From Methylococcales bacterium (lineage in GTDB: Bacteria; Pseudomonadota; Gammaproteobacteria; Methylococcales; Methylomonadaceae), in the NCBI GenBank assembly GCA_030949405.1, contig JAUZSN010000002.1, positions 2,094,553 to 2,158,552 on the forward strand: a DNA stretch of 64,000 nt. Reading direction: 5' to 3'. The position numbers and the translations under genes are program-made. Positions within the stretch are counted from its first letter, which is position 1, and every line of letters begins with the position of its first letter. Shown in pieces: positions 50,676 to 64,000 of the stretch. The notes beneath the pieces were generated by a model. That model was not told the DNA's origin and did no database searches. It worked only from the letters and a program-made list of their open reading frames with translations.

Positions 50676-50723
50676 ATGGCGAACAACATTTTTTCATTAC
50701 AACAGCAGCAGAGGAATAGCTGA
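50676..50723 (+). CDS. 15-residue leader frame overlapping the first chemosensory gene
   Basis: An ATG at 50676 opens a short frame (MANNIFSLQQQQRNS) whose TGA shares its last base with the ATG at 50723. The ribosome-binding site for the large gene (AGAGGAA) lies within the leader. Such overlaps can couple translation. It may equally be chance. Confidence 0.35.
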   Translation: MANNIFSLQQQQRNS

Positions 50724-53440
50724 TGCAAGAAAATGGTAATACTATACGCCTGCTCACTTATCGTGAGTTATTATTGGTTTTGCAAAAATTATGCAAGGAA
50801 AAGCATTCAGGGGTGATGGTTATCAAAAATGAGGCTGATGAAACAGCTGAATTTTTACTGGAAAAAGGCGCTATCTTTGATGTTGTTTTTAAAGCGAGAA
50901 GTGGAAAAGCTGCGCTAGGCTTAATTAAAGAAATAAAGAAAGGGCATGTTACTTTTTCTAATCATCTTAATCAGGGTGAAATAATAGAGAAAAAAATTGC
51001 CTTATCAACCGTTCAAATTTTTCAGATATTAACCTCTGATATTGAATTATCCGCAAAAAAATCGCAACAAAATCCGCTTAAACCCATAATGACGACGAAT
51101 GATGGATTAGCAACTAATTCATCTATGATTGAAGATGTGGTTACAAATTATGATGAATACAGTAGCATGGCTGAAAATGGAGGCATGGTAACCATTGAAG
51201 CGCAATTAGCCGCAATTATAGGACCGGTTGCTAAAATTGTATTTTTTGATTATTCGAAAGAAATTATTCGTGCGGCGAATGATTTTAAAATATTAAATGC
51301 GGTAGTAGAAAAAATTTCGAAAGAGGTTTTAACTGCTGAACAGCAAAAGATTTTTAGACAGAATATTTTAGCCTTTATTTCCCAATATAACTTGAAGGGG
51401 CATGATGCTATTTTACAGGCTTTAAAAGGGTCTGATAAAAAACTAAGGTTAAATAATTCAACATTGGGACTTTATGTTGCTAAGTACGGAATTCAAGGTG
51501 AATTTAACTCGCTACTCATAGATAAGTTATTATTACAGATTGAAATGGCTGGAAATTTAGGGCCTTCTGTTGATTTACTCGCTTTATTACGGTTATTGGA
51601 AAAATCAGGTCGCACTGGATTGCTGGAAGTTCGTGAAAAAGCAAAAGCAGGCGGATTTTATTTCGACAAAGGTGTTCTGATTAATGCAGTTGAGTGTGGT
51701 ATGAATGGCAAAATCATTGCCATGGATATTTTGCAATGGAATCATGATTATTTAGTGTTTAGAGCCGTCGCTCAAAAAAAGGTCTCTCGTCAGATTCAAC
51801 AAACGGTTGATTCTTTAGCTAAGGAAATGGAACTGTTAAAGATCGACGGCGTGGGGGTTCATAAAACGGCCATGCCTGAGTACAGTAAAGCCGACGAAAT
51901 TACGTTGGTTGCAAAAGCGATTGAATTAATTGAAAGTTGTGATGGTGCGCGTGCTGAAAAAATATTAACAAATATTTTAATAAGTCACGATGATAATTTT
52001 AAAGCCTGGTTATGGCTTTCGCGTGTGTTAACGAATATGACAGCCATTGAATTAGCATTGAAAAAAGCAGGGCATATTCACTCAAAAAATGCAGATTTAA
52101 TTGAGGAAGTTAGAAAATTTACTTTGGCGCGTAAAACAATCACCTCAGATTTTGTTATACGCTGTCCTTTTTGTTGGATGCCAACCGTTGAAAAAGAGAC
52201 GGAATGCAGTTATTGTCAGTCAAATTTTTTTATTGAGCCTAACTTTTTTAAACAGATAGGTAAAGCAAAAATAGATATATTAGATAAGGCAATTGACCGC
52301 TATAGTCATGCGTTACAAAAAGAAAATGACGGTAATAATCAAATTTACTTGCGGTTTTATTTTGCGATGGCGTATTTAAATCGACAATATTTTCAAGAGG
52401 GCTTAGATCAGTTTAATGAAATAACGCGTTTATTTCCTAAAAATAAGGCGCTGAATACCCAAGGACGTATTTTAACGGATTATATGAATGCGAGAGGGTT
52501 GAATTTTGACACGGCAGCTCCGACCAAGGAAAAACAGGTCAGTCATGATACCGAAAAACTGAAAATTTTAGTGGTTGAAGATAGTTTAGTTACTCGGAAA
52601 GTGATTACCAGAACACTCGTTGCTAATGGTTATGAAATTTTTGAAGCGAAAAATTCTTTTGAGGCACTCAATGGCTTAGAAGAAAAGAAACCTGATATGA
52701 TTTTATTGGATATTATCCTACCAGGAAAAGATGGTTACGAAATTCTTGAAGAAATTCGGCAAAAACCCATATTTGAAAAAACGCCCGTAATTATGTTAAC
52801 GTCACGGGATGGCTTGTTTGATAAGCTCAAAGGTAAGGTTTCAAGTGCCGATGAATATTTGACAAAACCATTTCAGCCGGATGAGCTGTTGACAGTTGTT
52901 CGTAAACATTTTGCAACAACTCAAAGTTTTTCACCCCCTCAAGTCAATGAAAAACCTGAGATTAATGAAAAATTTGAAGTCAATGAAACGCCTGAAGTCA
53001 ATGAAAAACTTGAAGATTCGATTACAATACCTTTAGAGCCGATTGTTGAAGAAAAAATACCCGCAAAAATAGGGTTGAAAACAAAAATTTTAATTGTGGA
53101 AGATAGTTTAGTAACGCGAAAAGTTATTGTAAGAACGCTTGTTGCAAGGGGGTATGAAGTGTTTGAGGCGAAAGACTCATTTGAAGCTTTAGAAGGCTTA
53201 GAACAAAAGAACCCCGACTTAATTTTATTGGATATTATTTTACCAGGTAAGGATGGTTATGAAATACTTGAGGAAATTAAGCAAAAACCATTATTTGAAC
53301 ATACGCCTGTTGTGATGTTAACGTCACGCGATGGTTTGTTTGATAAAATCAAGGGTAAAGTATCAGGAGCGAATGAATATTTAACGAAACCTTTTCAGCC
53401 TGAAGAGCTATTAACCATTGTGAGGAAATATTTAAGGTAA
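50723..53440 (+). CDS. DUF4388 protein with two receiver domains
   Basis: The 905-residue protein starts with a DUF4388/PatA-like domain (about 8-90, ending GHVTFSNH). It has a second such domain around 285-370 (LLRLLEKSGRTGLLEVREKAKAGGFYFDKGVLINA), a helical repeat region, and a CPFCW...CSYC zinc ribbon near 480-500. Two receiver domains follow, at about 614-730 and 788-903. Both receivers keep the VVEDS acidic pair, LLDIILPGKDG phospho-Asp and TKPF lysine. They are so alike that a recent duplication is likely. A linker repeats NEKxE-type units. No DNA-binding output is seen, so it is likely a phospho-relay or scaffold. Confidence 0.82.
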   Translation: MQENGNTIRLLTYRELLLVLQKLCKEKHSGVMVIKNEADETAEFLLEKGAIFDVVFKARSGKAALGLIKEIKKGHVTFSNHLNQGEIIEKKIALSTVQIFQILTSDIELSAKKSQQNPLKPIMTTNDGLATNSSMIEDVVTNYDEYSSMAENGGMVTIEAQLAAIIGPVAKIVFFDYSKEIIRAANDFKILNAVVEKISKEVLTAEQQKIFRQNILAFISQYNLKGHDAILQALKGSDKKLRLNNSTLGLYVAKYGIQGEFNSLLIDKLLLQIEMAGNLGPSVDLLALLRLLEKSGRTGLLEVREKAKAGGFYFDKGVLINAVECGMNGKIIAMDILQWNHDYLVFRAVAQKKVSRQIQQTVDSLAKEMELLKIDGVGVHKTAMPEYSKADEITLVAKAIELIESCDGARAEKILTNILISHDDNFKAWLWLSRVLTNMTAIELALKKAGHIHSKNADLIEEVRKFTLARKTITSDFVIRCPFCWMPTVEKETECSYCQSNFFIEPNFFKQIGKAKIDILDKAIDRYSHALQKENDGNNQIYLRFYFAMAYLNRQYFQEGLDQFNEITRLFPKNKALNTQGRILTDYMNARGLNFDTAAPTKEKQVSHDTEKLKILVVEDSLVTRKVITRTLVANGYEIFEAKNSFEALNGLEEKKPDMILLDIILPGKDGYEILEEIRQKPIFEKTPVIMLTSRDGLFDKLKGKVSSADEYLTKPFQPDELLTVVRKHFATTQSFSPPQVNEKPEINEKFEVNETPEVNEKLEDSITIPLEPIVEEKIPAKIGLKTKILIVEDSLVTRKVIVRTLVARGYEVFEAKDSFEALEGLEQKNPDLILLDIILPGKDGYEILEEIKQKPLFEHTPVVMLTSRDGLFDKIKGKVSGANEYLTKPFQPEELLTIVRKYLR

Positions 53441-53445
53441 TAATT

Positions 53446-54498
53446 ATGGTTAAAGCACCTTATAAGGTTTTAGTTGTTGATGACTCGAGTATTATTCGCC
53501 AAGCTATTATTGCTATTCTGAATTCTAGTAATGATTTGAACGTTGTAGGCGAAGCTGCGAATGGGCATGAAGCACTAATACAAATCCCTAAGTTAAAGCC
53601 AGATATAATCACTCTGGATATTGTTATGCCAGAAATGGATGGTTTAACCGCTTTAAAGCATATAATGATTTTTTATCCAACGCCTACGGTGATTTTAAGT
53701 AGTTTTATTCAGGAAGGAACGCCGATTACGTTTGATGCTATTCGTTATGGTGCCATTGACTTTATAAATAAGCCTTCTAATTTAGCTAATAGTGCGTCTA
53801 GGCTTCAAAAAGAACAGTTAATAAAAAAAGTTTGTTTGGCGGCAAAAGTTAGAAGTAACGCACTTCAATATATTAGATTGAAACCTAATATAAAAGTGAC
53901 TAGCACTCAAAAGCAAGGATGTAAAAATTTAGTCGTCTTGGGCGTGGGTGAAGGGGGCTATGGAACGTTGTTAAAAATAGTTCCTAAATTATTGGTTAAT
54001 AATACGACCGCTTATATTATTATTTTTTATGAAGCTGCGGCGCATGTAGATGGTTTTATTCGTTATCTTAACCATTTTAGTACAGTAAATGTGCAACGTG
54101 CGGTGAATAACGCTTTATTAGAAGTCGGCGGCTGTTACATTAGTACGGGTGAAGAATATGTCACAGTTCATGGAGAAAGAGGAAAATTAACAACGTATGT
54201 CAGTCCGGCTCCTTTTTCATCACGTCGTGGTTCAATTGATATGTTGATGTTTTCTGTGGCAGAAAACTTAGATAAACACTCATTGGGTGTAATACTTTCG
54301 GGTGCAGGAAGTGATGGTGCTGAAGGACTCGAAGAAATAGTACGTGTGGGGGGTGGGGCTATTATTCAGTCACCGGTTAGTTGCCTTTATAAAAGTATGG
54401 CTTTGTCAGCTTTAAATTTATGTGAAGCAGAAGTAGTGGTTGCCGATAGGGAAATTGCTACTGAAATAAATAATTTTTTAATGTATTCGGTCGATTAA
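53446..54498 (+). CDS. CheB-like response regulator lacking catalytic Ser and His
   Basis: The 350-residue protein has a receiver (VVDDSSIIRQ, phospho-Asp in ITLDIVMPEMDG, KPS lysine) and a CheB methylesterase fold. In the fold the nucleophile motif GASTGG is GVGEGG and the QHMP histidine motif is replaced by FYEAA; the aspartate motif GSDGA is kept. So it is probably not a methylesterase and may act as a phospho-controlled binding protein. It starts five bases after the previous gene and belongs to the same operon. No CheR is in the window. Confidence 0.85.
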   Translation: MVKAPYKVLVVDDSSIIRQAIIAILNSSNDLNVVGEAANGHEALIQIPKLKPDIITLDIVMPEMDGLTALKHIMIFYPTPTVILSSFIQEGTPITFDAIRYGAIDFINKPSNLANSASRLQKEQLIKKVCLAAKVRSNALQYIRLKPNIKVTSTQKQGCKNLVVLGVGEGGYGTLLKIVPKLLVNNTTAYIIIFYEAAAHVDGFIRYLNHFSTVNVQRAVNNALLEVGGCYISTGEEYVTVHGERGKLTTYVSPAPFSSRRGSIDMLMFSVAENLDKHSLGVILSGAGSDGAEGLEEIVRVGGGAIIQSPVSCLYKSMALSALNLCEAEVVVADREIATEINNFLMYSVD

Positions 54499-54536
54499 GT
54501 GCCGTATGAATATGATGACTCTATGAGGAAATTAAA

Positions 54537-57500
54537 ATGAAATGGTTTAGAGACCTCAGTCTCAGGATAAGACTACTGGCTTTCTTCTTGGTTGTAGGGA
54601 TTGTTCCTTTTGCAGTAAGTGGATTTATTGCGGCAACGAGTTCTTCTGCTGCTTTGGAAGAACAAATTTTTGACTCGTTAACAGCGGTTCGACAAGTAAA
54701 AAAAGAACGCCTTGAGTCTTATTTTGCTGCTCGTAAAGGGGATGTCTCGGTTTTGGCAAACACCGTATCTGCGATGAAAAATGAAGGGTTTAGTAAGCTA
54801 GAAGCTATTCAAGCGTTACAAAAAATTCAGCTTGAAGACTATTTCGATACTCGATTTAAATTAATGGCTGACGTACAACAAAATATACGTTTTACTGAGG
54901 GGGTAAAGTTGTTTTCAGCCGCTTTTAAGCAAGGTATAAAAAGTGAAGCGTATAGGGCATTATCCTCAACAAAAGAAAAGGGCTTTAAAACTTTTTTAGT
55001 TCAATCAGGTTTTTATGATCTTTTTTTAATTGATGCTGAAGGTAACGTTGTTTACAGTGTTGCGAAAGAGTCAGATTTTGGTGTTAATATTAAAACAGGT
55101 GCATTAAAGACATCAGGAATAGGACGTGTATTTACTAAATCACGAACACAAATTGTGATTGAGGATTTTTCGTGGTACGAGCCTTCTAAAGCCCAAGCTG
55201 CTTTTTTGGCCACGCCTTTAACAGACAATTCAGGACGATATATCGGAAGTGTTGTTTTTCAAATTTCAGCAGATCCTATTAATAAAATCACTCAACAACG
55301 AAGTGGTTTAGGTCAAACCGCTGAGAGTTATTTGGTGGGTCGATCGTCTGACAATAAAAACTCCTTGCGAAGTAAACGATTATTAAAGAAAGGTGGCGTT
55401 GGTGACGAAGAGTTAGGTGCAGACGTTAACTCGGTACTGGATGGCGATCAAGGACGGATTACTAAATCGGGCGGAACGGGGATATTAAAGATTAGTGTTT
55501 ATACCCCACTTGAGATACCTGGTTTAAAATGGGGGATTATTTCTTCGGCAACTATGGAAGAGGTCGTTGTACCCAAGATAAAAGGGGAAGAGGAAGATTA
55601 TCTGGTTAAGTATAAAAAAGCCTATGGTTATAATGATTTATTCTTAATTGATCCAAGTGGTTTTATTTTCTATACCACAGATCATGATTTAGAATATCGT
55701 ACTAATATTTTGACAGGAATTTATTCATCAACCAATCTTGGAAAACTGATTGGTCAAATTAATAAATCTAAGACATTTGGGTTTGCTGATTTTAAACTTT
55801 ATGCCCCTTCAAATAATTATCCTGCGGCTTTTGTGGCTCAACCGGTTGTTAAGGATGGAAAAGTAGAATTAATTGTTGTATTAAAGCTCTCTATTAAAAA
55901 AATTAACGAAGTCATGCAGCAACGTGCAGGGATGGGGGAAACGGGAGAAAGTTATTTGGTGGGTTCGGATAATTTAATGCGTTCTGATTCTGTTTTTGAT
56001 AAAACACATAAAGTAAAAGCTTCATTTGAAAACCCGAATAACGGGAGTGTAAAAACTAAAGCGTTTAAAGAAGCCTTAGCGGGTAATGACGGTGCGATAC
56101 GAATTGATAACTATCGGGGAGTTTCTGTATTATCGTCGTATACGCAATTAAAAGTTTTTAATACGACATGGGCTCTTATTGCTGAAATTGATGAAGACGA
56201 AGCGTTAAGTTCTGTAACCGCATTACGACGCTATATGATGATTTTAGGCTTAATTGTTGGAGTTTTGATTGTTGCCTTTGCTCTTTATGTTGCGAAATCA
56301 ATTGCGAATCCGATTGTAAACATGGCGAATACGATTACAAAAATTGCTGAAAATAGAGATTTAACGCTAGATGTTCCCGTGGAATCGGATGATGAAATTG
56401 GACATATGTCGGTTGCGTTTAATAATATGATGCATATTATTCATGAAGCGTTTAAAACAGTAAATGAGTCCGCGTTTAAAGTGGCGGATGGTGCAGAAAA
56501 CGTGGCAAGACGAGCAGCAGCAAATAGAGAGAGGGCGCAAAGTGAGTTAGTTCGTGCGCATGAATCGGTGGATATTATCTCAGAAATGGGAGGGACTGCA
56601 CGTCAAGTGAGTCAGGCATCGGAAGCACAGAAAATGGCGGCAGAAACATCAACGATAACGATTACACGATTACTGGATTCAGTCTCAAAGGTATCAGAAT
56701 TAGCGGCAACTCAGAATAAAGAGGCTACTGAAACCATGGTACGGGTATCTGAGATGGGGCAAATCGGAACGAAGGTTGTTGCAACCGCAAGAGAACAGGG
56801 GGCGATGGTAGCCCGGGTATCTTCAGCGGTAGCATCAATTACAGGGGCTGTGGAAAATATGAATAAAGCCGTTGGACAAGCCACAGAACATGGTAAAGCA
56901 TCACTAATCGCCGCTGAAGAAGGTCGAAAATCAGTATCATCAACGGTAGAAGGGATGCAGGCTATTGCGGACTCATCTGAACAAATCTCTGATATTATCG
57001 GGGTAATTACTGAAATTGCTGAACAAACTAACTTATTAGCACTGAATGCTGCGATCGAAGCGGCAAGAGCGGGAGCGCATGGTAAAGGTTTTGCGGTGGT
57101 TGCGGATGAGGTAGGTAAACTAGCCCAACGTTCATCGGAAGCGGCAAAAGAAATTACCCAGTTGATTAAGGATTCAAGTGAAAGGGTTGCCGATGGGTCA
57201 AAACTGACTGATGAATCTCAACAATCATTGATTAAAATTGATGAAGGGGGTCGAGATAATATGCGAGCCATTGATGAGATTGAAAGAACGGCGGATGTTT
57301 TAGCACAAGGTACAGAGCAAGTACAAGGCCTGATGAAAGAACTTAATGTTTTGGCCGAACAAATTGCGGGTATGGCGGGCGAGCAGGGTGAGCGTCGTGA
57401 GGTTGCAGAAAAAGCATTATTATTATTACTTGAAGAATCAAATCGTATTACAGAATTAGTTGGTGAGGCGAATAAGGGTGCGAATGAAATTGGGACAGAA

Positions 57501-57710
57501 ATGAATAGTATTGTATCGCGCACAGAGGAAATGAGTACGATGACAGATCAACAAGCAAAACGTTCTGCAAAAGTGGTAAATATTTCTAATTCATCCGCGC
57601 AGGCAGCAGAACAAACAGTGGAAGGAGCGGGAACCGTTGTAAAAATTACTGAGGGTTTACAAGATTTGTCAAAAGATCTAACAACTCAGGTCGAAAACTT
57701 CAAAATTTAG
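54537..57710 (+). CDS. Methyl-accepting chemotaxis protein with tandem sensor domains
   Basis: The 1057-residue receptor has a membrane helix at about 12-32 and a very large periplasmic part with two related Cache-like units ([13 protein letters not shown] near 160 and [13 protein letters not shown] near 360). A second helix lies at about 563-585, followed by a HAMP domain and a long cytoplasmic coiled coil with the hairpin tip [31 protein letters not shown]. The repeated sensor half suggests duplication. It is the only receptor in the operon. The signalling tip that contacts CheA and CheW is intact. GGAAAT precedes the ATG. Confidence 0.94.
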
Positions 57711-57724
57711 TCAAGGGGTTCAAT

Positions 57725-58252
57725 ATGACTGATAATTATAGAATGAGGGATGATACACTGGATAAGGAACAGCTTATTCAGATGGTCGGGTTTAAAATTG
57801 GTAAAGAAACATTTGGTGTCGATATTCTCATGGTACAAGAGATTATTCGTTCGGCACCCATTACTTATGTCCCTAATTCACCTGAATTTGTTGAGGGTGT
57901 GATTAATTTACGGGGAAGTATTATTCCCGTCATTGATTTACGGAAGCGATTAAACCTAAATACAGGTGATTATCGTCAAGAAACCGATTGGATTCTCATT
58001 TTAGATATAGGGGGTCGAATTACGGGTTTTATTGTTGATTGGGTCACAGATGTTATTAAAATTCAAGAAAATACAATAGATCCGCCCCCTGATATTCTGG
58101 TTGCAGGATTGCAAAGCCAGTATATTAGAGGCGTTTGTGAGGTTGAAGAGGCGCTATTGATTTTGTTAGATTTTAATCGTATTTTGTTAGTTGATGAAAT
58201 TATAAAATTAAAAAATGTAAGCGTTGACCAAGAAAAAAATGAGGCAGGTTAG
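57725..58252 (+). CDS. cheW: CheW coupling protein
   Basis: The 175-residue protein is a CheW: MVGFKIGKETFGVDILMVQEIIR, PNSPEFVEGVINLRGSIIPVIDLRKRL, and a VDWVTDVIKI segment. It links the receptor to CheA. It is 14 bases after the MCP gene. A 20-residue N-terminal and a short C-terminal extension exceed the minimal family size. Nothing is missing from the two-barrel core. Confidence 0.93.
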   Translation: MTDNYRMRDDTLDKEQLIQMVGFKIGKETFGVDILMVQEIIRSAPITYVPNSPEFVEGVINLRGSIIPVIDLRKRLNLNTGDYRQETDWILILDIGGRITGFIVDWVTDVIKIQENTIDPPPDILVAGLQSQYIRGVCEVEEALLILLDFNRILLVDEIIKLKNVSVDQEKNEAG

Positions 58253-58289
58253 TGAAAGCGTATTTAGAGATTAATAAGGTGTATAGGTA

Positions 58290-58646
58290 ATGGGAAAACG
58301 TATTTTAATTGTTGATGATTCCTCTATGATGCGCAAAATGATTACTAAAGTATTAACTAATCGTGGAGGTCATACAATTATTGGAGAAGCTAAAAATGGT
58401 CTTGAAGCGTTGGAGGAGTATAAAAGACTACAGCCTGATTTAATTACTATGGATATTACCATGGGAGAGATGGATGGCTTAAGTGCGGCGAGAGCTATTT
58501 TAGAGCATGATAGTCAGGCAAATATTTTATTTCTTTCAAATTTAGATAAAAATAAATATGGTGAGGATGTGGAGAGCATTGGTGCAATAGGATTTGTTAA
58601 TAAGCACAAGTCTCAAGATATTCTTGATGTGATAGCGGCTAATTAA
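58290..58646 (+). CDS. cheY: CheY-like single-domain response regulator
   Basis: The 118-residue protein is a stand-alone receiver: IVDDSSMMRKMI, phospho-Asp in LITMDITMGEMDGLSA, LSNLD switch residue and NKHK lysine region. It should be phosphorylated by CheA. The pattern is that of CheY variants acting outside flagellar motors as well, so the output target is not certain. It sits between cheW and cheA with short gaps. Confidence 0.9.
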   Translation: MGKRILIVDDSSMMRKMITKVLTNRGGHTIIGEAKNGLEALEEYKRLQPDLITMDITMGEMDGLSAARAILEHDSQANILFLSNLDKNKYGEDVESIGAIGFVNKHKSQDILDVIAAN

Positions 58647-58657
58647 AAGGGCTGATA

Positions 58658-61615
58658 ATGATTGATTTATCTTTACTTGAAGATTTTGTAATGGGGGCTG
58701 GGGAAAGTCTGGAAGAGATGGAAGCCGCTCTACTTACACTTGAATCAACGCCTGATGATAATGAATTACTTAATACCATCTTCAGAGCGATACATACAAT
58801 TAAAGGTGCTGCTCAATTTGTAGGGTTGGAAAGGGCCTCTGCACTTAGTCATGCGTTAGAAGATTTACTTGATTTACTTCGAGAAGGTAAAAAACAGGTC
58901 ACAATAGAAATTATTGCGCTTTTAATTCAAGCAAAAGATAGAATCACTTTATTAGTTACCGACTTAGAACGATCACAAACAGAAGAAACAGAAGTTAATG
59001 ATTTAATTGCAAAGCTTAATGTCCATTTAGGTCTTGAACCTGTTGAAGCACCCTCTGATAGTCATGAGGATGCTTCGGTGCAAAATGAGGAAGAACTTAC
59101 TTCCTTCTTATCAAATGATGAAGAACTTACTCCTTTTCTTTCAGAGGAAGAAGTTAGCGATGATATTGCCTCGTTTTTAAGTGATGATGCGTTAAATACG
59201 GATTCTTTTTTGTTAGAGGATAAGGAACAAACAACTGTTAGTTCTTTTTTAGAAGAAACGAATGAAAATGAAGCCACGAGTTCTTTTTTATCAGAAGATG
59301 ATTTAACGCTGGGTAGCTTTCTATCAGAGGCAATTGATGAGCAAGAGAATAATTCATTTAATTTAAATGAAAATAATCAGCCGCCTTTATCATTTGAATT
59401 GGATAAAAATTTAAAATCACCTACGGATGAAGAATTTTCTATCCCTGAAGAAGAATACGATCAGGAGTTGTTTGGAATTTTTATTTCACAACTAGAAGAA
59501 CAGTTTTCGGTATTGAAAGGTTGTCTCGTTCAGCCAGATAGTTTTCAGCATAAAAAAGAACTGCTTGAGACGGTGTTAAAAGCATTAGAAAGTCTTAAAT
59601 TTTCTGCGAACTACATGACGTATGAAAAATTAACACATTTTTATGCAGGCTGGATCCATAAAGTTGTTAATGTTAAAGAAAATTTACACGTAACAGACGA
59701 GCTTTCGCTTACGTGTATAAAAGAATACTTACTTAGATTGCAGACTATTTTTCCGCAACTTAAAGAAAATAAAGTTGAGAGTGACTATGTCGCGCCTAAA
59801 AAAGTAGATGCCGTTGTTACCGATGTATTTAATGAAAAAAATATATCAGGCGGTGAATTAGCCTTTATTAATAATTTAGAGGTTCGAAATAAACAATCCC
59901 CACTCATAGTTGATAAACCTAAGAAAGAGAGCATCGACGATAATGACGGTGATTTATTTGATCGATTAAGCTCAGCATTGGATGCTTCTGTAATAGAGCA
60001 ATCTATTACTTCGGTTCCTATCAATGAAGTTTTTAGTTCATTACTTGACTCAACCGTTGAACACCGAAAACACGTTAATGTTAATAAAGACAAAGGTTTA
60101 GTACTTGATGTTAAAACATTAGCGGAAGCTAATAAAGAACCGTTTAAACCGGTCGAAACATCAGAAGTATTAGACGTATTAGAACCTAAACGTGTGGTTG
60201 AAGATAAAACGTCTGTTGGGGCAAAAATAGAGCCTCCTTCCAAACCAGATATTGTTAAACCATCCCCAACTAAGACGGATGATAAAAAAGCGACCGCTGC
60301 CCCGCCAGCAACAGGTAAAGTTTTTAAGAAAAGTATTCGGGTTGATGCGGATAAAATTGATTCACTGATGAACCAAGTTGGCGAACTGATTGTGGATCGT
60401 GCTTATTTCTTTCAATTAGCCACAGAAATCTCGGAATTACAACAATATTTAAAAGAGACGGGGTTAGGACAAAAAGATCTTAAGCCTGTAAGAACGTTTG
60501 CTTATCGGTTTAGCGAAGCCATTATTTCATTAGGTCGAACCTCTAATGAGCTTCAAGAAGGCGTAATGAAGGTTAGAATGTTGCCTGTCGCGCAAATTTT
60601 TAACCGTTTTCCTCGTTTAGTCCATGATGTTGCAAATACGAATAATAAAAAAGTGAATTTAGATATTCGAGGAGAGGAAACTGAACTTGATAAAATGATT
60701 ATTGAAGAAGTGGCCGATCCATTGATGCATATGATTAGAAATGCCATTGGACATGGCATAGAATTACCTGAAGATCGAATTAAGGCAGGGAAACCAGAAA
60801 TTGGAACGTTAGTTTTAGAAGCCTTTCACGAAAGTAATCATATTGTTATAGAAGTAACGGATGATGGTCGTGGTATTGATGTTGAACGCATTAAAGTTAA
60901 AGCAGAGCAAATGGAATTGTTCACTAGAGATGAACTTGATCGAATGAGTACGAATGATCTAACGCGTTTTATTATGATGCCAGGTTTTTCAACCGCCAAA
61001 GAAATTAGTAGCACTTCAGGACGCGGTGTGGGCATGGATGTGGTTAAGAAAAATATTGAAAAACTTAATGGCACGATTGAGGTTGAATCGAAAAAAGGCA
61101 TTGAAACTAAAATGCGTTTGAAAATTCCATTGACACTGGCTATTATTCCCGCTTTATTAGTGAAAGTAGGGGTTGATTCATTTACCATTCCATTGGCGAA
61201 TGTTGAAGAAACATTGCGAGTTGAACACAATGAAGTTTCAATTATGGAAGAAACCGAAGTGATGTATCTACGTGGAAAAACAGTGCCTATTTTTCGCTTG
61301 GCAACGTTATTTTCATTAAAATCTGATAGTAAAATGGGTTTAGATGATTTTTTTGTGGTGATTGTTAACACGGGGACTCAAAAAATAGGGCTAATGGTTG
61401 ATGCACTGATCGGGCAAGAAGAGGTTGTTATTAAACCCTTAGCCGATTATTTGTATGAACAAAACTGTTTTTCAGGTGCAACCATCATTGGTGATGGACG
61501 GATTTCTTTAATTTTAGATATTTATGAGTTGATTAATATGACAACCGATAAACAAATTAAAATGCATCGTAAACAAGAACAAAAATCATTAGCAACACTG
61601 GGAAATAAGACGTAA
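58658..61615 (+). CDS. cheA: CheA histidine kinase with repeated acidic motif linker
   Basis: The 985-residue kinase begins with an HPt domain with phospho-His46 (FRAIHTIKGAAQF). Residues about 145-230 hold repeated SFLxxD-type acidic motifs. A second HPt-like region (about 265-370) has no His at the expected place (ESLKFSANYM). Dimerisation starts near 560, the N box is HMIRNAIGHG at about 691, then DDGRGID and GRGVGMDVV, then a CheW-like C-terminal domain. It drives the operon's phospho-signalling. The repeats could be docking sites for several receivers. Core catalytic motifs are intact. Confidence 0.95.
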   Translation: MIDLSLLEDFVMGAGESLEEMEAALLTLESTPDDNELLNTIFRAIHTIKGAAQFVGLERASALSHALEDLLDLLREGKKQVTIEIIALLIQAKDRITLLVTDLERSQTEETEVNDLIAKLNVHLGLEPVEAPSDSHEDASVQNEEELTSFLSNDEELTPFLSEEEVSDDIASFLSDDALNTDSFLLEDKEQTTVSSFLEETNENEATSSFLSEDDLTLGSFLSEAIDEQENNSFNLNENNQPPLSFELDKNLKSPTDEEFSIPEEEYDQELFGIFISQLEEQFSVLKGCLVQPDSFQHKKELLETVLKALESLKFSANYMTYEKLTHFYAGWIHKVVNVKENLHVTDELSLTCIKEYLLRLQTIFPQLKENKVESDYVAPKKVDAVVTDVFNEKNISGGELAFINNLEVRNKQSPLIVDKPKKESIDDNDGDLFDRLSSALDASVIEQSITSVPINEVFSSLLDSTVEHRKHVNVNKDKGLVLDVKTLAEANKEPFKPVETSEVLDVLEPKRVVEDKTSVGAKIEPPSKPDIVKPSPTKTDDKKATAAPPATGKVFKKSIRVDADKIDSLMNQVGELIVDRAYFFQLATEISELQQYLKETGLGQKDLKPVRTFAYRFSEAIISLGRTSNELQEGVMKVRMLPVAQIFNRFPRLVHDVANTNNKKVNLDIRGEETELDKMIIEEVADPLMHMIRNAIGHGIELPEDRIKAGKPEIGTLVLEAFHESNHIVIEVTDDGRGIDVERIKVKAEQMELFTRDELDRMSTNDLTRFIMMPGFSTAKEISSTSGRGVGMDVVKKNIEKLNGTIEVESKKGIETKMRLKIPLTLAIIPALLVKVGVDSFTIPLANVEETLRVEHNEVSIMEETEVMYLRGKTVPIFRLATLFSLKSDSKMGLDDFFVVIVNTGTQKIGLMVDALIGQEEVVIKPLADYLYEQNCFSGATIIGDGRISLILDIYELINMTTDKQIKMHRKQEQKSLATLGNKT

Positions 61616-61665
61616 TGTCTTATTTATTAATAGCTATGAATGTGTTTACTTAAGCAGAGAATATT

Positions 61666-62727
61666 GTGGCAGAAAAAATAAAGGTCTTGGTGGTTGATGA
61701 TGCAAGTTTTATGGTTAAAGCTATTAGTGAAATTTTAAACTCTGATCCTGATATTGAAGTGGTGGGTTCAGCTAAAAATGGAAAATTGGCTTTAGATCAA
61801 ATTAAAGCACTGAAACCTGATGTAATTACATTGGATGTTGATATGCCTGTTATGGATGGAATCAAGGCGGTTCGTCATATTATGCTAGGATGTCCTGTTC
61901 CTATTGTTATGTTAAGCTCGCTATTTAGTAATGGGGCGATTTCTTTTGAGGCATTAAGATTAGGTGTTGTTGATTTTTTACCTAAACCTTCAGGGGCTAT
62001 CTCACAAGATATTCATAATGCGAAGCAGCAAATTATAAAACGTATAAAAATTGCGGTTTCAGTTAATATTCATAATATTCATCGTGTAAAAATTCAACCT
62101 ACGAATGAATCTAGCGAATTAGACAACTATGCTTTTCAAAACTTAGATCATTTATTACTCTTAGGAACAACGTTAGGGGGACCTAATACGAGTATTCGTC
62201 TTTTTTCTAAATTGGCCCCTAAATTATCGACGGCTGCGATTATAGTACAAGAAATTTCACCTAAAATATTATCCGCTTTTGTCGAGGAATTTGATAAATA
62301 CAGTGCATGGAATATGCGAGAAGCTGTTGATGGCGCTCTGTTAGAATCAGGCGTTTGTTATATTGCCTCAAATGAATATGCTATTTCATTAGAAGTTAGG
62401 GAAAATAATGAAGTTTTTTTAAAGCTTGTCGATGCCGTTGAAAAACCTTTAAATAAGCTTTTTTCTTCGGCTGCTCATGTGTTTGGTGAAAATACCATCG
62501 GTGTGTTATTGACAGGTATCGGTGATGACGGTTCAGAAGGTTTTTTAACCATTAAAGAAAAGTTAGGGGTTACGATTGCACAAAAAAGTGATACCTGTGT
62601 TTATCCTAATTTAGTAGAATGTGCCGTTGAACGAGGGTTAGTTGATAGGATTGTTGACGAAGCTGATCTTATTAATGATATAGACATGTTAATTAATGAG
62701 CATATAAATGATTTATCGTCGTCTTGA
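61666..62727 (+). CDS. Second CheB-like regulator without the catalytic Ser and His
   Basis: The 353-residue protein (GTG start at 61666) has a receiver (VVDDASFMVKAI, phospho-Asp in ITLDVDMPVMDG, KPSG) and a CheB fold. The nucleophile motif reads GTTLGG in place of GASTGG, so the serine is a threonine. The histidine motif reads VQEIS in place of TQHMP. The aspartate motif GDDGS is present. It is a paralogue of the gene at 53446 with different losses. Both are therefore unlikely to demethylate the receptor. Confidence 0.85.
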   Translation: MAEKIKVLVVDDASFMVKAISEILNSDPDIEVVGSAKNGKLALDQIKALKPDVITLDVDMPVMDGIKAVRHIMLGCPVPIVMLSSLFSNGAISFEALRLGVVDFLPKPSGAISQDIHNAKQQIIKRIKIAVSVNIHNIHRVKIQPTNESSELDNYAFQNLDHLLLLGTTLGGPNTSIRLFSKLAPKLSTAAIIVQEISPKILSAFVEEFDKYSAWNMREAVDGALLESGVCYIASNEYAISLEVRENNEVFLKLVDAVEKPLNKLFSSAAHVFGENTIGVLLTGIGDDGSEGFLTIKEKLGVTIAQKSDTCVYPNLVECAVERGLVDRIVDEADLINDIDMLINEHINDLSSS

Positions 62728-62742
62728 GTATAGAGTTTTTTA

Positions 62743-63645
62743 ATGATTATTATTTGTGATAAATGTAAAACTAGGTTTCGGCTAGATATTAGTTTAATAA
62801 AAAAAACACTTTTTAAGGTACGGTGCTCAAAATGCAAGCATGTTTTTTCGGTTGATACGTCCCCTAAAGAGGAGGTTTATGAGCTAGAACAAACGAGTAT
62901 AGAGCCTGAGAAAAAAATTATTACTATCTGTAATCATAAAGGGGGGGTTGCTAAAACATCGACGTGTTTAAATTTAGGCACATCGTTATCCCTCTTAGGT
63001 AAGCGAGTATTGTTGATTGATTTTGATGTACAAGCTAATTTGAGTTTGTTGTTAGGACAAAATAATCAATTTTCTTTTTATGAAATTATTCAAGAAGATA
63101 TTGATATTTTAAAAGTAATTAAAAATGTGCGGACTAACTTATGGTTATTGCCTTCAAATAGTCGTATGGCCTTATTGGCAAAACAATGCTTGCAGCAAAA
63201 AGACTTCGGTTTTTTCTTACGAGATGCGTTAAAGCCGATAAAAGATCATTTCGATTATATTTTAATTGATACCCCGCCCTCGGTGAAATTTTTTACCCCC
63301 AATGCTTTGATGGCCGCTGATTTTGTTGTTATTCCAACACAAAGTGAGTTTTTATCAATGAATGGAGTATTGCAAACGGAAAATATTATTAAAGCGGTGG
63401 CAAAGACACATGCCATTGACTATAAGGTATTAGTAACCTTGTTTGATGAACGTAATACCGCTTCAAAAGTTATTTATTCTAAATTAAAGAAAAAATATCA
63501 AGGAAAAATATTTGAAACGGTCATTAATTTTGATTCTAAAATGCAAGAGTCTCAAATTGTTAATGAACCTATTGCCTACTATGATGAAAAAGCAATAGCG
63601 GCTAAGCAGTATCACGCCTTAGCAAAAGAAATTGAAGTTATCTAG
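62743..63645 (+). CDS. ParA/MinD-family ATPase with N-terminal zinc ribbon
   Basis: The 300-residue protein starts with a MJ0042-type zinc ribbon (C5-DK-C8 ... C28-SK-C31), then a ParA ATPase. The deviant Walker A is NHKGGVAKTSTCLNLG, the LLIDFDVQANLSLLLG motif follows, and the Walker B-like FDYILIDTPP comes next. ParA proteins form ATP-dependent gradients on DNA and position plasmids, chromosomes or protein arrays. As the last gene of a chemosensory operon it most likely positions the CheA/MCP array, as ParC/PpfA do elsewhere. The zinc ribbon may bind a partner. No ParB is seen. Confidence 0.88.
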   Translation: MIIICDKCKTRFRLDISLIKKTLFKVRCSKCKHVFSVDTSPKEEVYELEQTSIEPEKKIITICNHKGGVAKTSTCLNLGTSLSLLGKRVLLIDFDVQANLSLLLGQNNQFSFYEIIQEDIDILKVIKNVRTNLWLLPSNSRMALLAKQCLQQKDFGFFLRDALKPIKDHFDYILIDTPPSVKFFTPNALMAADFVVIPTQSEFLSMNGVLQTENIIKAVAKTHAIDYKVLVTLFDERNTASKVIYSKLKKKYQGKIFETVINFDSKMQESQIVNEPIAYYDEKAIAAKQYHALAKEIEVI

Positions 63646-63866: not shown

Positions 63867-64000
63867 ATGTTTCGTAGAGAAATTACTTTCCCTTTAATAA
63901 CATTTCTATCTATTTTGTTAATTTGGGAATTAATAACGCGCTTTAGTGGCTGGAGTAACCAAGTGTTTCCAAGTCCTTTGGCGGTATTAATGAGTATGGG
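63867..64000 (+). CDS. Start of an ABC transporter permease (SsuC/TauC-like), cut by the window end
   Basis: An ATG at 63867 with AAAGGAA upstream opens a frame running off the window: MFRREITFPLITFLSILLIWELITRF..., followed by VFPSPLAVLMSMG. This is the usual N-terminus of SsuC/TauC/NrtB-type permeases (first membrane helix, then PxPxxV). Substrate class cannot be told from this piece; sulfonate, nitrate, bicarbonate or pyrimidine-precursor importers are all possible. About 220 bases without features separate it from the ParA gene. Confidence 0.6.
   Translation, partial: MFRREITFPLITFLSILLIWELITRFSGWSNQVFPSPLAVLMSM

Follow-up and report, generated by a model that had tools for sequence, protein, structure and literature searches.

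A conserved chemosensory operon with two CheB homologues lacking the catalytic serine and histidine in a Methylococcales bacterium

Introduction

Why would a methane-oxidising bacterium keep two copies of the chemosensory methylesterase CheB that lack catalytic residues, in a genome in which no CheR is found? This question is raised by an operon at positions 50723-63645 of a 64,000-nucleotide stretch of the Methylococcales bacterium assembly GCA_030949405.1 (contig JAUZSN010000002.1, positions 2,094,553 to 2,158,552, forward strand); the whole stretch is called the window below. Textbooks place the memory of bacterial chemosensing in CheR/CheB methylation, and one paper describes CheR as a core enzyme common to every chemosensory family (PMC3447774). 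Here, CheB has been kept, duplicated and selected, and none of the module copies examined retains the triad. The original prediction, made from the sequence of the window, was of two catalytically dead CheBs with receiver domains, no CheR, and an undescribed variant of chemosensory signalling. Other genomic stretches and genomes are denoted here by L and G numbers, respectively.

Results

CheB1 and CheB2 keep the fold and lack the triad

Sequence alignment, read within the predicted CheB fold rather than from structure-derived residue pairs, placed S164, H190 and D286 of E. coli CheB opposite G168, Y195 and D290 of CheB1 (contexts GVGEGGY, IFYE and GAGSDG) and opposite T169, E196 and D288 of CheB2 (contexts GTTLGGP, VQE and GIGDDG). 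The same register was obtained from phmmer alignments of both proteins to the solved CheBs 1a2o and 6ymz; the triad of P. atrosepticum CheB is S165-H191-D287 (PMC7698151). The catalytic Asp and the receiver phospho-Asp are kept in both proteins. AlphaFold models of the two CheBs have the CheB fold (predicted local distance difference test scores 85.4 and 83.1). A Foldseek search using the CheB2 model revealed matches to 1a2o and 6ymz over both domains (query template-modelling (TM) score 0.82-0.86). The CheB1 model matched 1chd and 3sft domain by domain (target TM scores 0.85 and 0.89); over the full length its TM score was 0.54-0.55, and its domain arrangement differs from that of solved CheBs.

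Neither protein reached the NCBIfam cut-offs for CheB. Against NF001965 (cut-off 293 bits), CheB1 scored 238.6 and CheB2 274.3, and against NF009206 (cut-off 342) the two scored 209 and 220.1; all ten triad-bearing control CheBs passed NF001965 at 391-496 bits, and five of the ten passed NF009206. Judged by sequence and predicted fold, CheB1 and CheB2 have the architecture of CheB and lack its catalytic triad. The prediction of two dead CheBs, with the Ser replaced by Gly and Thr, the His gone, the Asp kept and the receiver domains retained, was borne out. An alignment error hiding an intact triad was ruled out by the agreement of the alignments to solved CheBs and by the predicted fold. CheB1 carries a His five residues past the H190 position; the nucleophile Ser is nevertheless absent in 23 of 24 CheB1s.

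The CheB pair belongs to a conserved module

One scan with CheB2 gave 205 places, the best 80 of which were kept, and the locus counts below refer to these. The same module was found in 31 other loci (L003-L030, L037, L038 and L043), as far as the contigs extend. CheA and CheB2 were found in all 31 (CheB2 in pieces in L030), the ATP-binding cassette (ABC) permease in 30, ParA in 29, CheY in 27, and CheW and the methyl-accepting chemotaxis protein (MCP) in 26 each; missing genes fall at contig or stretch ends, and L027 (3.6 kb) stops before ParA and the permease. The genes usually run in the order regulator, CheB1, MCP, CheW, CheY, CheA, CheB2, ParA, ABC permease, ATPase and binding protein. 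A third CheB (CheB3) lies ahead of CheB2 in L025, L027, L028 and L037, and three of the four CheB3s scanned have a REC-PATAN-REC-CheB architecture. Some module loci have an extra gene between CheY and CheA, and in L015, L018 and L021 the match to the REC/PATAN regulator is on the downstream side of the ABC genes. Going by record titles, the module is carried by Methylococcales, other Gammaproteobacteria (including Candidatus Venteria and Candidatus Competibacter), Desulfobacterales, Deltaproteobacteria and one Polarisedimenticolaceae bin; most are metagenome bins, the taxon assignment of which may be wrong. A gene for a small membrane protein and one for a TauE/SafE-type permease adjoin the module in some relatives (L012, 14533-15919; L018, 16683-18060).

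No complete triad was found in any of 84 dead-type CheBs (24 CheB1, 31 CheB2, 4 CheB3, 23 from the triple-CheB loci described below and 2 from the planctomycete locus L040), a set made up of the tree rows, the two window proteins and six further CheB1s, in which L138 ends before the Asp. Outside the module and the triple-CheB loci, 17 of 19 CheBs carry Ser, His and Asp, the L040 pair being the two exceptions. The three positions read AYD in 9, AHD in 4, HYD in 3 and SYD in 1 of the 17 CheB1 tree rows, and TED in 21, TDD in 4, SED in 3, TEE in 1 and NED in 1 of the 30 CheB2 rows; no row of CheB3 (4), of the triple-locus CheBs (7, 8 and 8) or of L040 (2) reads Ser-His-Asp. The receiver retains its phospho-Asp in all 78 dead rows. 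CheB2 is acidic at the His position (31/31) and has Thr or Ser at the nucleophile position (30/31) and Asp or Glu at the Asp position (31/31), and its pocket-loop residues are invariant.

For the dead domain, the ratio of nonsynonymous to synonymous substitution (dN/dS) between the window and its nearest relatives was 0.07-0.16 for CheB2 (five pairs) and 0.06 and 0.15 for CheB1 (two of three pairs; dS was saturated in the third), within the range of CheY, CheW, ParA and CheA (0.035-0.174), although dS exceeded 1 in most pairs and the ratios are rough. These estimates indicate that the dead esterase domain is under purifying selection, and gene decay was judged unlikely given dN/dS and the conserved residue patterns. 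The search for operons with the same CheB pair, proposed together with the original prediction, returned a conserved and selected pair in the 31 other loci.

The relationships among the CheBs were examined in an unrooted tree built by a quick method with Shimodaira-Hasegawa-like approximate likelihood ratio support, the long branches of which call for caution. CheB2, CheB1, the triad-bearing CheBs and the three triple-locus groups each formed one branch (support 99-100), as did CheB3 (73). The first triple-locus CheB and one L040 CheB grouped with CheB2 (97), the third triple-locus CheB grouped with CheB3 (99), and the triad-bearing group was nearest to CheB2 and the first triple-locus CheB (84). 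The 'canonical' group consisted of the 17 triad-bearing of the 19 non-module rows, with the L040 pair kept apart. The tree omits the L046 copies (close to L042) and the CheB fragments found in L011, L029 and L030; the first CheB of L050 was not selected, and L142 duplicates L024. The tree suggests that the dead CheBs are an old set of paralogues and not the product of repeated recent decay, and is compatible with both one and several losses of the triad.

Dead CheBs occur in a second type of locus

Three tandem dead CheB-like genes were found in L031, L032, L035, L036, L041, L042, L046, L047 and L050. CheY and then CheA follow in most of these loci; L032 stops in CheY, and CheA comes directly next in L041. 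In seven of the nine, genes for a Ras/Arf-like GTPase, which we take to be MglA-like, and a roadblock protein lie upstream on the opposite strand (one protein of each kind was scanned against Pfam), and an HDOD-like gene, called by eye, is present in eight of the nine. The third CheB is of PATAN-REC-CheB type in two of eight scanned. L035 (7893-16581) and L036 (7793-16968) are examples with dead CheBs, CheY and CheA beside GTPase, roadblock and HDOD-like genes. The planctomycete locus L040 (4035-14819) carries two dead CheBs (SQD and GYD), one triad-bearing CheB and one CheR. Dead CheBs and methylation genes can thus occur side by side, an arrangement that would also suit a role in output or modulation.

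No CheR is found in the genome, the genus or the module loci

The genome (2.98 Mb in five contigs, 96.3% complete) gave no match to the CheR profile PF01739, which finds CheR in 7 of 14 known control genomes, and exactly two matches to CheB_methylest (PF01339), both of them the CheBs of the operon. A CheR acting in trans in this genome was sought and none was found. The claim that CheR is missing held for the genome, the module loci and the module's contig; the circumstance that would have spoken against it, a CheR and an active CheB elsewhere in this genome, was not encountered, there being no CheR and no third CheB. CheR was likewise found in none of the four genomes of the genus (92-96% complete). 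Six of 61 sampled genomes of the family encode a CheB2-type protein (576-625 bits; next best 262), four belonging to the same genus and lacking CheR and two belonging to another genus and having two CheR matches each. Methylation-free operation is well supported for the own genus only.

A phmmer search of the open reading frames (ORFs) of L001-L085 with E. coli CheR and the L089 CheR as queries revealed CheR in 0 of 31 module loci and 0 of 9 triple-CheB loci, versus 7 of 17 loci with a triad-bearing CheB (L039, L040, L052, L053, L055, L056 and L085; Fisher test against the module loci, 2.6e-4, which, like the other p values of this analysis (3.6e-5 and 0.02), overstates independence because the genomes and loci are related). 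Our genome table covers 32 of 38 genomes, the six triple-CheB genomes being excluded, and CheR, read by eye, is never on the module's contig. It is absent in 8 of 10 genomes whose only CheBs seem to be those of the module and in 1 of 22 with further CheBs (p 3.6e-5, to be read with the same caution); among the 22, the triad of an extra CheB was read, by eye, for G006 only, and the extra match of G019 is a fragment. No other chemotaxis gene was recognised by eye among the listed ORFs near the CheRs of G011 (L089) and G026 (L090), the latter viewed over the first 12 kb of a 26-kb contig; of the two, the L089 CheR alone was scanned against Pfam. The CheR of G019 (L140) lies on a separate contig with CheW- and MCP-like ORFs. 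In G006, the genome of L008, a further CheB in a separate cluster (L091, 4413-5462) keeps Ser, His and Asp by eye, and the genome has no CheR match.

The profile PF02895 (H-kinase_dim) has a single match in the genome, which suggested that the operon stands alone; this reading was rejected, because L088 holds a hybrid kinase that the profile misses. This second cluster (L088, 1040-8305; contig C2, about 2656040-2663300) encodes a 1584-residue CheA/REC hybrid, a 597-residue MCP and a CheW-like protein, and we take it to be Pil-Chp-like by its make-up. It contains no CheR or CheB according to the genome-wide searches. Over the whole genome there are two MCPsignal and five CheW-domain matches, one further CheW-domain protein (C2:834644-835042, L131) lying apart from both clusters. 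The profile for the flagellar switch protein FliG (FliG_C, positive in 4 of 14 controls) gave no match, and four PilT-family matches above cut-off indicate that type IV pilus motor genes are present. CheC (PF04509) gave no match; other CheY phosphatases were not searched.

Layout of the operon

The eight ORFs of the original prediction were recovered at the same coordinates and in the same orientation, and all have the expected Pfam domains above cut-off (Table 1). With MCP, CheW, CheY and a CheA carrying Hpt and ATPase domains together, the operon is a chemosensory (CheA/CheW/MCP) system. One CheA stands against five receiver domains (two in the PATAN regulator, one each in CheB1, CheY and CheB2). 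An SsuABC/NMT1-like ABC transporter follows ParA, its permease gene beginning 221 bases after the ParA end in the window. In 24 of 29 measurable module loci the permease starts at most 80 bp from the ParA end or overlaps it (median 30 bp, from mechanically called ORF starts). A promoter scan was at chance level (47 found, 50.2 expected), and a terminator scan found 12 against 8.2 expected.

Table 1. Genes and residues of the chemosensory operon and the adjoining transporter (window positions unless a locus is given)
Feature	Position	Strand	Basis
Response regulator, one DUF4388 (PATAN-type) match and two C-terminal REC domains	50723..53440	+	ORF list, Pfam
CheB1, REC and dead methylesterase domain, G168/Y195/D290 at Ser/His/Asp positions	53446..54498	+	Pfam, alignments, AlphaFold model
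CheB1 codons of G168, Y195, D290	53947-53949, 54028-54030, 54313-54315	+	
Chemoreceptor (MCP), dCache, HAMP and MCPsignal	54537..57710	+	Pfam
CheW	57725..58252	+	Pfam
CheY, single REC	58290..58646	+	Pfam
CheA, Hpt (HTIKG), dimerisation, HATPase and CheW domains	58658..61615	+	ORF list, Pfam
CheB2, REC and dead methylesterase domain, T169/E196/D288	61666..62727	+	Pfam, alignments, AlphaFold model
CheB2 codons of T169, E196, D288	62170-62172, 62251-62253, 62527-62529	+	
ParA-type ATPase, N-terminal MJ0042-type zinc ribbon	62743..63645	+	Pfam and NCBIfam scans
ABC permease, gene start, runs beyond the window	63867..64000	+	whole gene at L087:920-1681
ABC transporter ATPase, after permease	L087:1660-2472		
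SsuA/NMT1-like binding protein, after ATPase	L087:2462-3478		likeness to SsuA/NMT1

Discussion

With a kinase, five receivers and intact phosphorylation sites, signalling through the operon is predicted to be able to run, and the pathway probably relies on something other than the textbook cycle of methylation to reset or to send its signal. Our preferred explanation, which we hold with about even confidence, is that the CheBs have turned into pseudoenzymes whose phosphorylation-switched binding gives non-covalent feedback in the array in place of methylation and demethylation. The dCache receptor would control CheA, from which phosphate would reach the receivers in CheB1, CheB2, CheY and the PATAN regulator. 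Once its receiver is phosphorylated, the dead esterase domain would be released from it, as happens in ordinary CheB, and would then bind a partner without chemistry, most likely the signalling core (receptor helices, CheA or CheW). Such binding would act as a phosphorylation-driven feedback. Dead CheBs and CheA are common to two locus types with different neighbours, an ABC transporter in one and GTPase and roadblock genes in the other, which favours a role at the core. For output, CheY and the PATAN-REC protein would most likely act on type IV pili, the ABC transporter or both, and ParA would place the complex. A putative type IV pilus output is supported by the lack of FliG matches, the four PilT-family matches and the cyanobacterial link, PATAN regulators being tied to type IV pili in cyanobacteria (PMC7690835). 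The constant SsuABC/NMT1-like neighbourhood suggests that the chemosensory array is coupled to solute uptake. More tentatively, and with somewhat less than even confidence, we propose an old multi-phylum class in which two or three CheB pseudoenzymes replaced methylation as phospho-switched binding modules, one branch being ABC-coupled and another standing beside MglA-like polarity genes.

Several observations weigh against non-covalent feedback by dead CheBs. We infer the binding by the dead domains, and its partner is a predicted one. CheR is present elsewhere in 23 of 32 module genomes and further CheB matches in 22 of 32, so methylation in trans is possible there. Nor is the absence of CheR specific to the module: it extends to 10 of the 55 family genomes that do not encode the CheB2-type protein, and in 10 of the 17 loci that carry a triad-bearing CheB the stretch examined contains no CheR match. 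The His survives at its position in four CheB1s and the Ser in one CheB1, three CheB2s, three triple-locus CheBs and one L040 CheB, never both together. A scan for a strict methylation motif found none in the operon MCP and does not discriminate, the motif being absent from 20 of 26 operon MCPs and 12 of 18 other MCPs; its hairpin pattern, at first so strict that it missed the E. coli receptors, had been loosened, and the controls include ten family MCPs taken irrespective of the triads of the adjoining CheBs. Finally, a phosphate-sink role accounts for the receivers equally well.

That sink, in which the CheB receivers drain phosphate from CheA and CheY and the esterase-like domain is a scaffold, would suit five receivers per CheA, the phospho-Asp kept in all 78 dead rows and the lack of a CheC match in the genome (the one CheY phosphatase family searched). 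We consider it improbable, because a sink would not require a domain of 180 residues to be conserved, its pocket loops invariant and its dN/dS at 0.06-0.16; the conservation of the dead domain points to binding rather than to a bare sink. A binding role might also be one of output. The dead CheBs could be response regulators whose phosphorylated domain binds the ABC transporter, ParA, a pilus motor or the GTPase, with no part in adaptation, and we regard this as possible but rather unlikely. ParA follows CheB2 with the ABC genes close behind (median 30 bp, 29 loci), PATAN-fused dead CheBs occur, and in L040 the nearby intact CheB and CheR make the dead CheBs unneeded as methylesterases. However, the dead CheBs stay while their neighbours differ between the two locus types, and two or three paralogues per locus would require separate targets.

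A new chemistry in the pocket, such as a Thr/Glu/Asp or metal site in CheB2, is quite improbable: CheB2 is uniform at the three positions and its pocket loops are invariant, but at those positions CheB1, CheB3 and the triple-locus CheBs show wide variation. It is highly improbable that the genes are decaying towards loss or that methylation is supplied in trans by another system. In the Competibacter locus L030 (7475-11063), the reading frames of CheA and CheB2 are interrupted and no ParA was found, which may reflect loss or sequencing errors, and CheR is encoded elsewhere in most module genomes. Against this, an unbroken CheB2 frame is present in each of the 30 remaining module loci, which span several phyla by record title, selection is purifying where measured, and the own genus has no CheR match. 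For this genome, decay or methylation in trans is already largely contradicted.

The module offers a natural test of array regulation by CheB binding alone, and in a genus without detected CheR, adaptation must be non-covalent or absent. The claim of an undescribed variant stands as far as the accessible open-access literature goes, in which no description of catalytically dead CheBs or of the module was found; subscription journals fall mostly outside that scope.

The operon CheBs resemble the CheB methylesterase/deamidase (E. coli; 1a2o, 1chd, 6ymz and 3sft) in their REC and CheB_methylest domains, fold, phospho-Asp and catalytic Asp, and differ in lacking the Ser and His, in scoring below the NCBIfam cut-offs and in having no CheR found with them. 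The Pil-Chp system has the hybrid kinase ChpA, PilG and PilH and, where complete, PilK (a CheR) and ChpB (a CheB). It shares CheA, MCP, CheW, receivers and possibly a type IV pilus link with the operon, which is nevertheless distinct from the separate cluster of Pil-Chp make-up in the same genome. The Dif system of Myxococcus is not known to have CheR and CheB methylation enzymes and uses a CheC-type protein; the operon differs from it in keeping two CheB pseudoenzymes, with no CheC found. In the cyanobacterial Tax/Pix systems, a chemotaxis-like pathway linked to type IV pili also includes a PATAN response regulator (PMC7690835), whereas CheB pseudoenzymes, ParA and an ABC transporter are part of the module described here.

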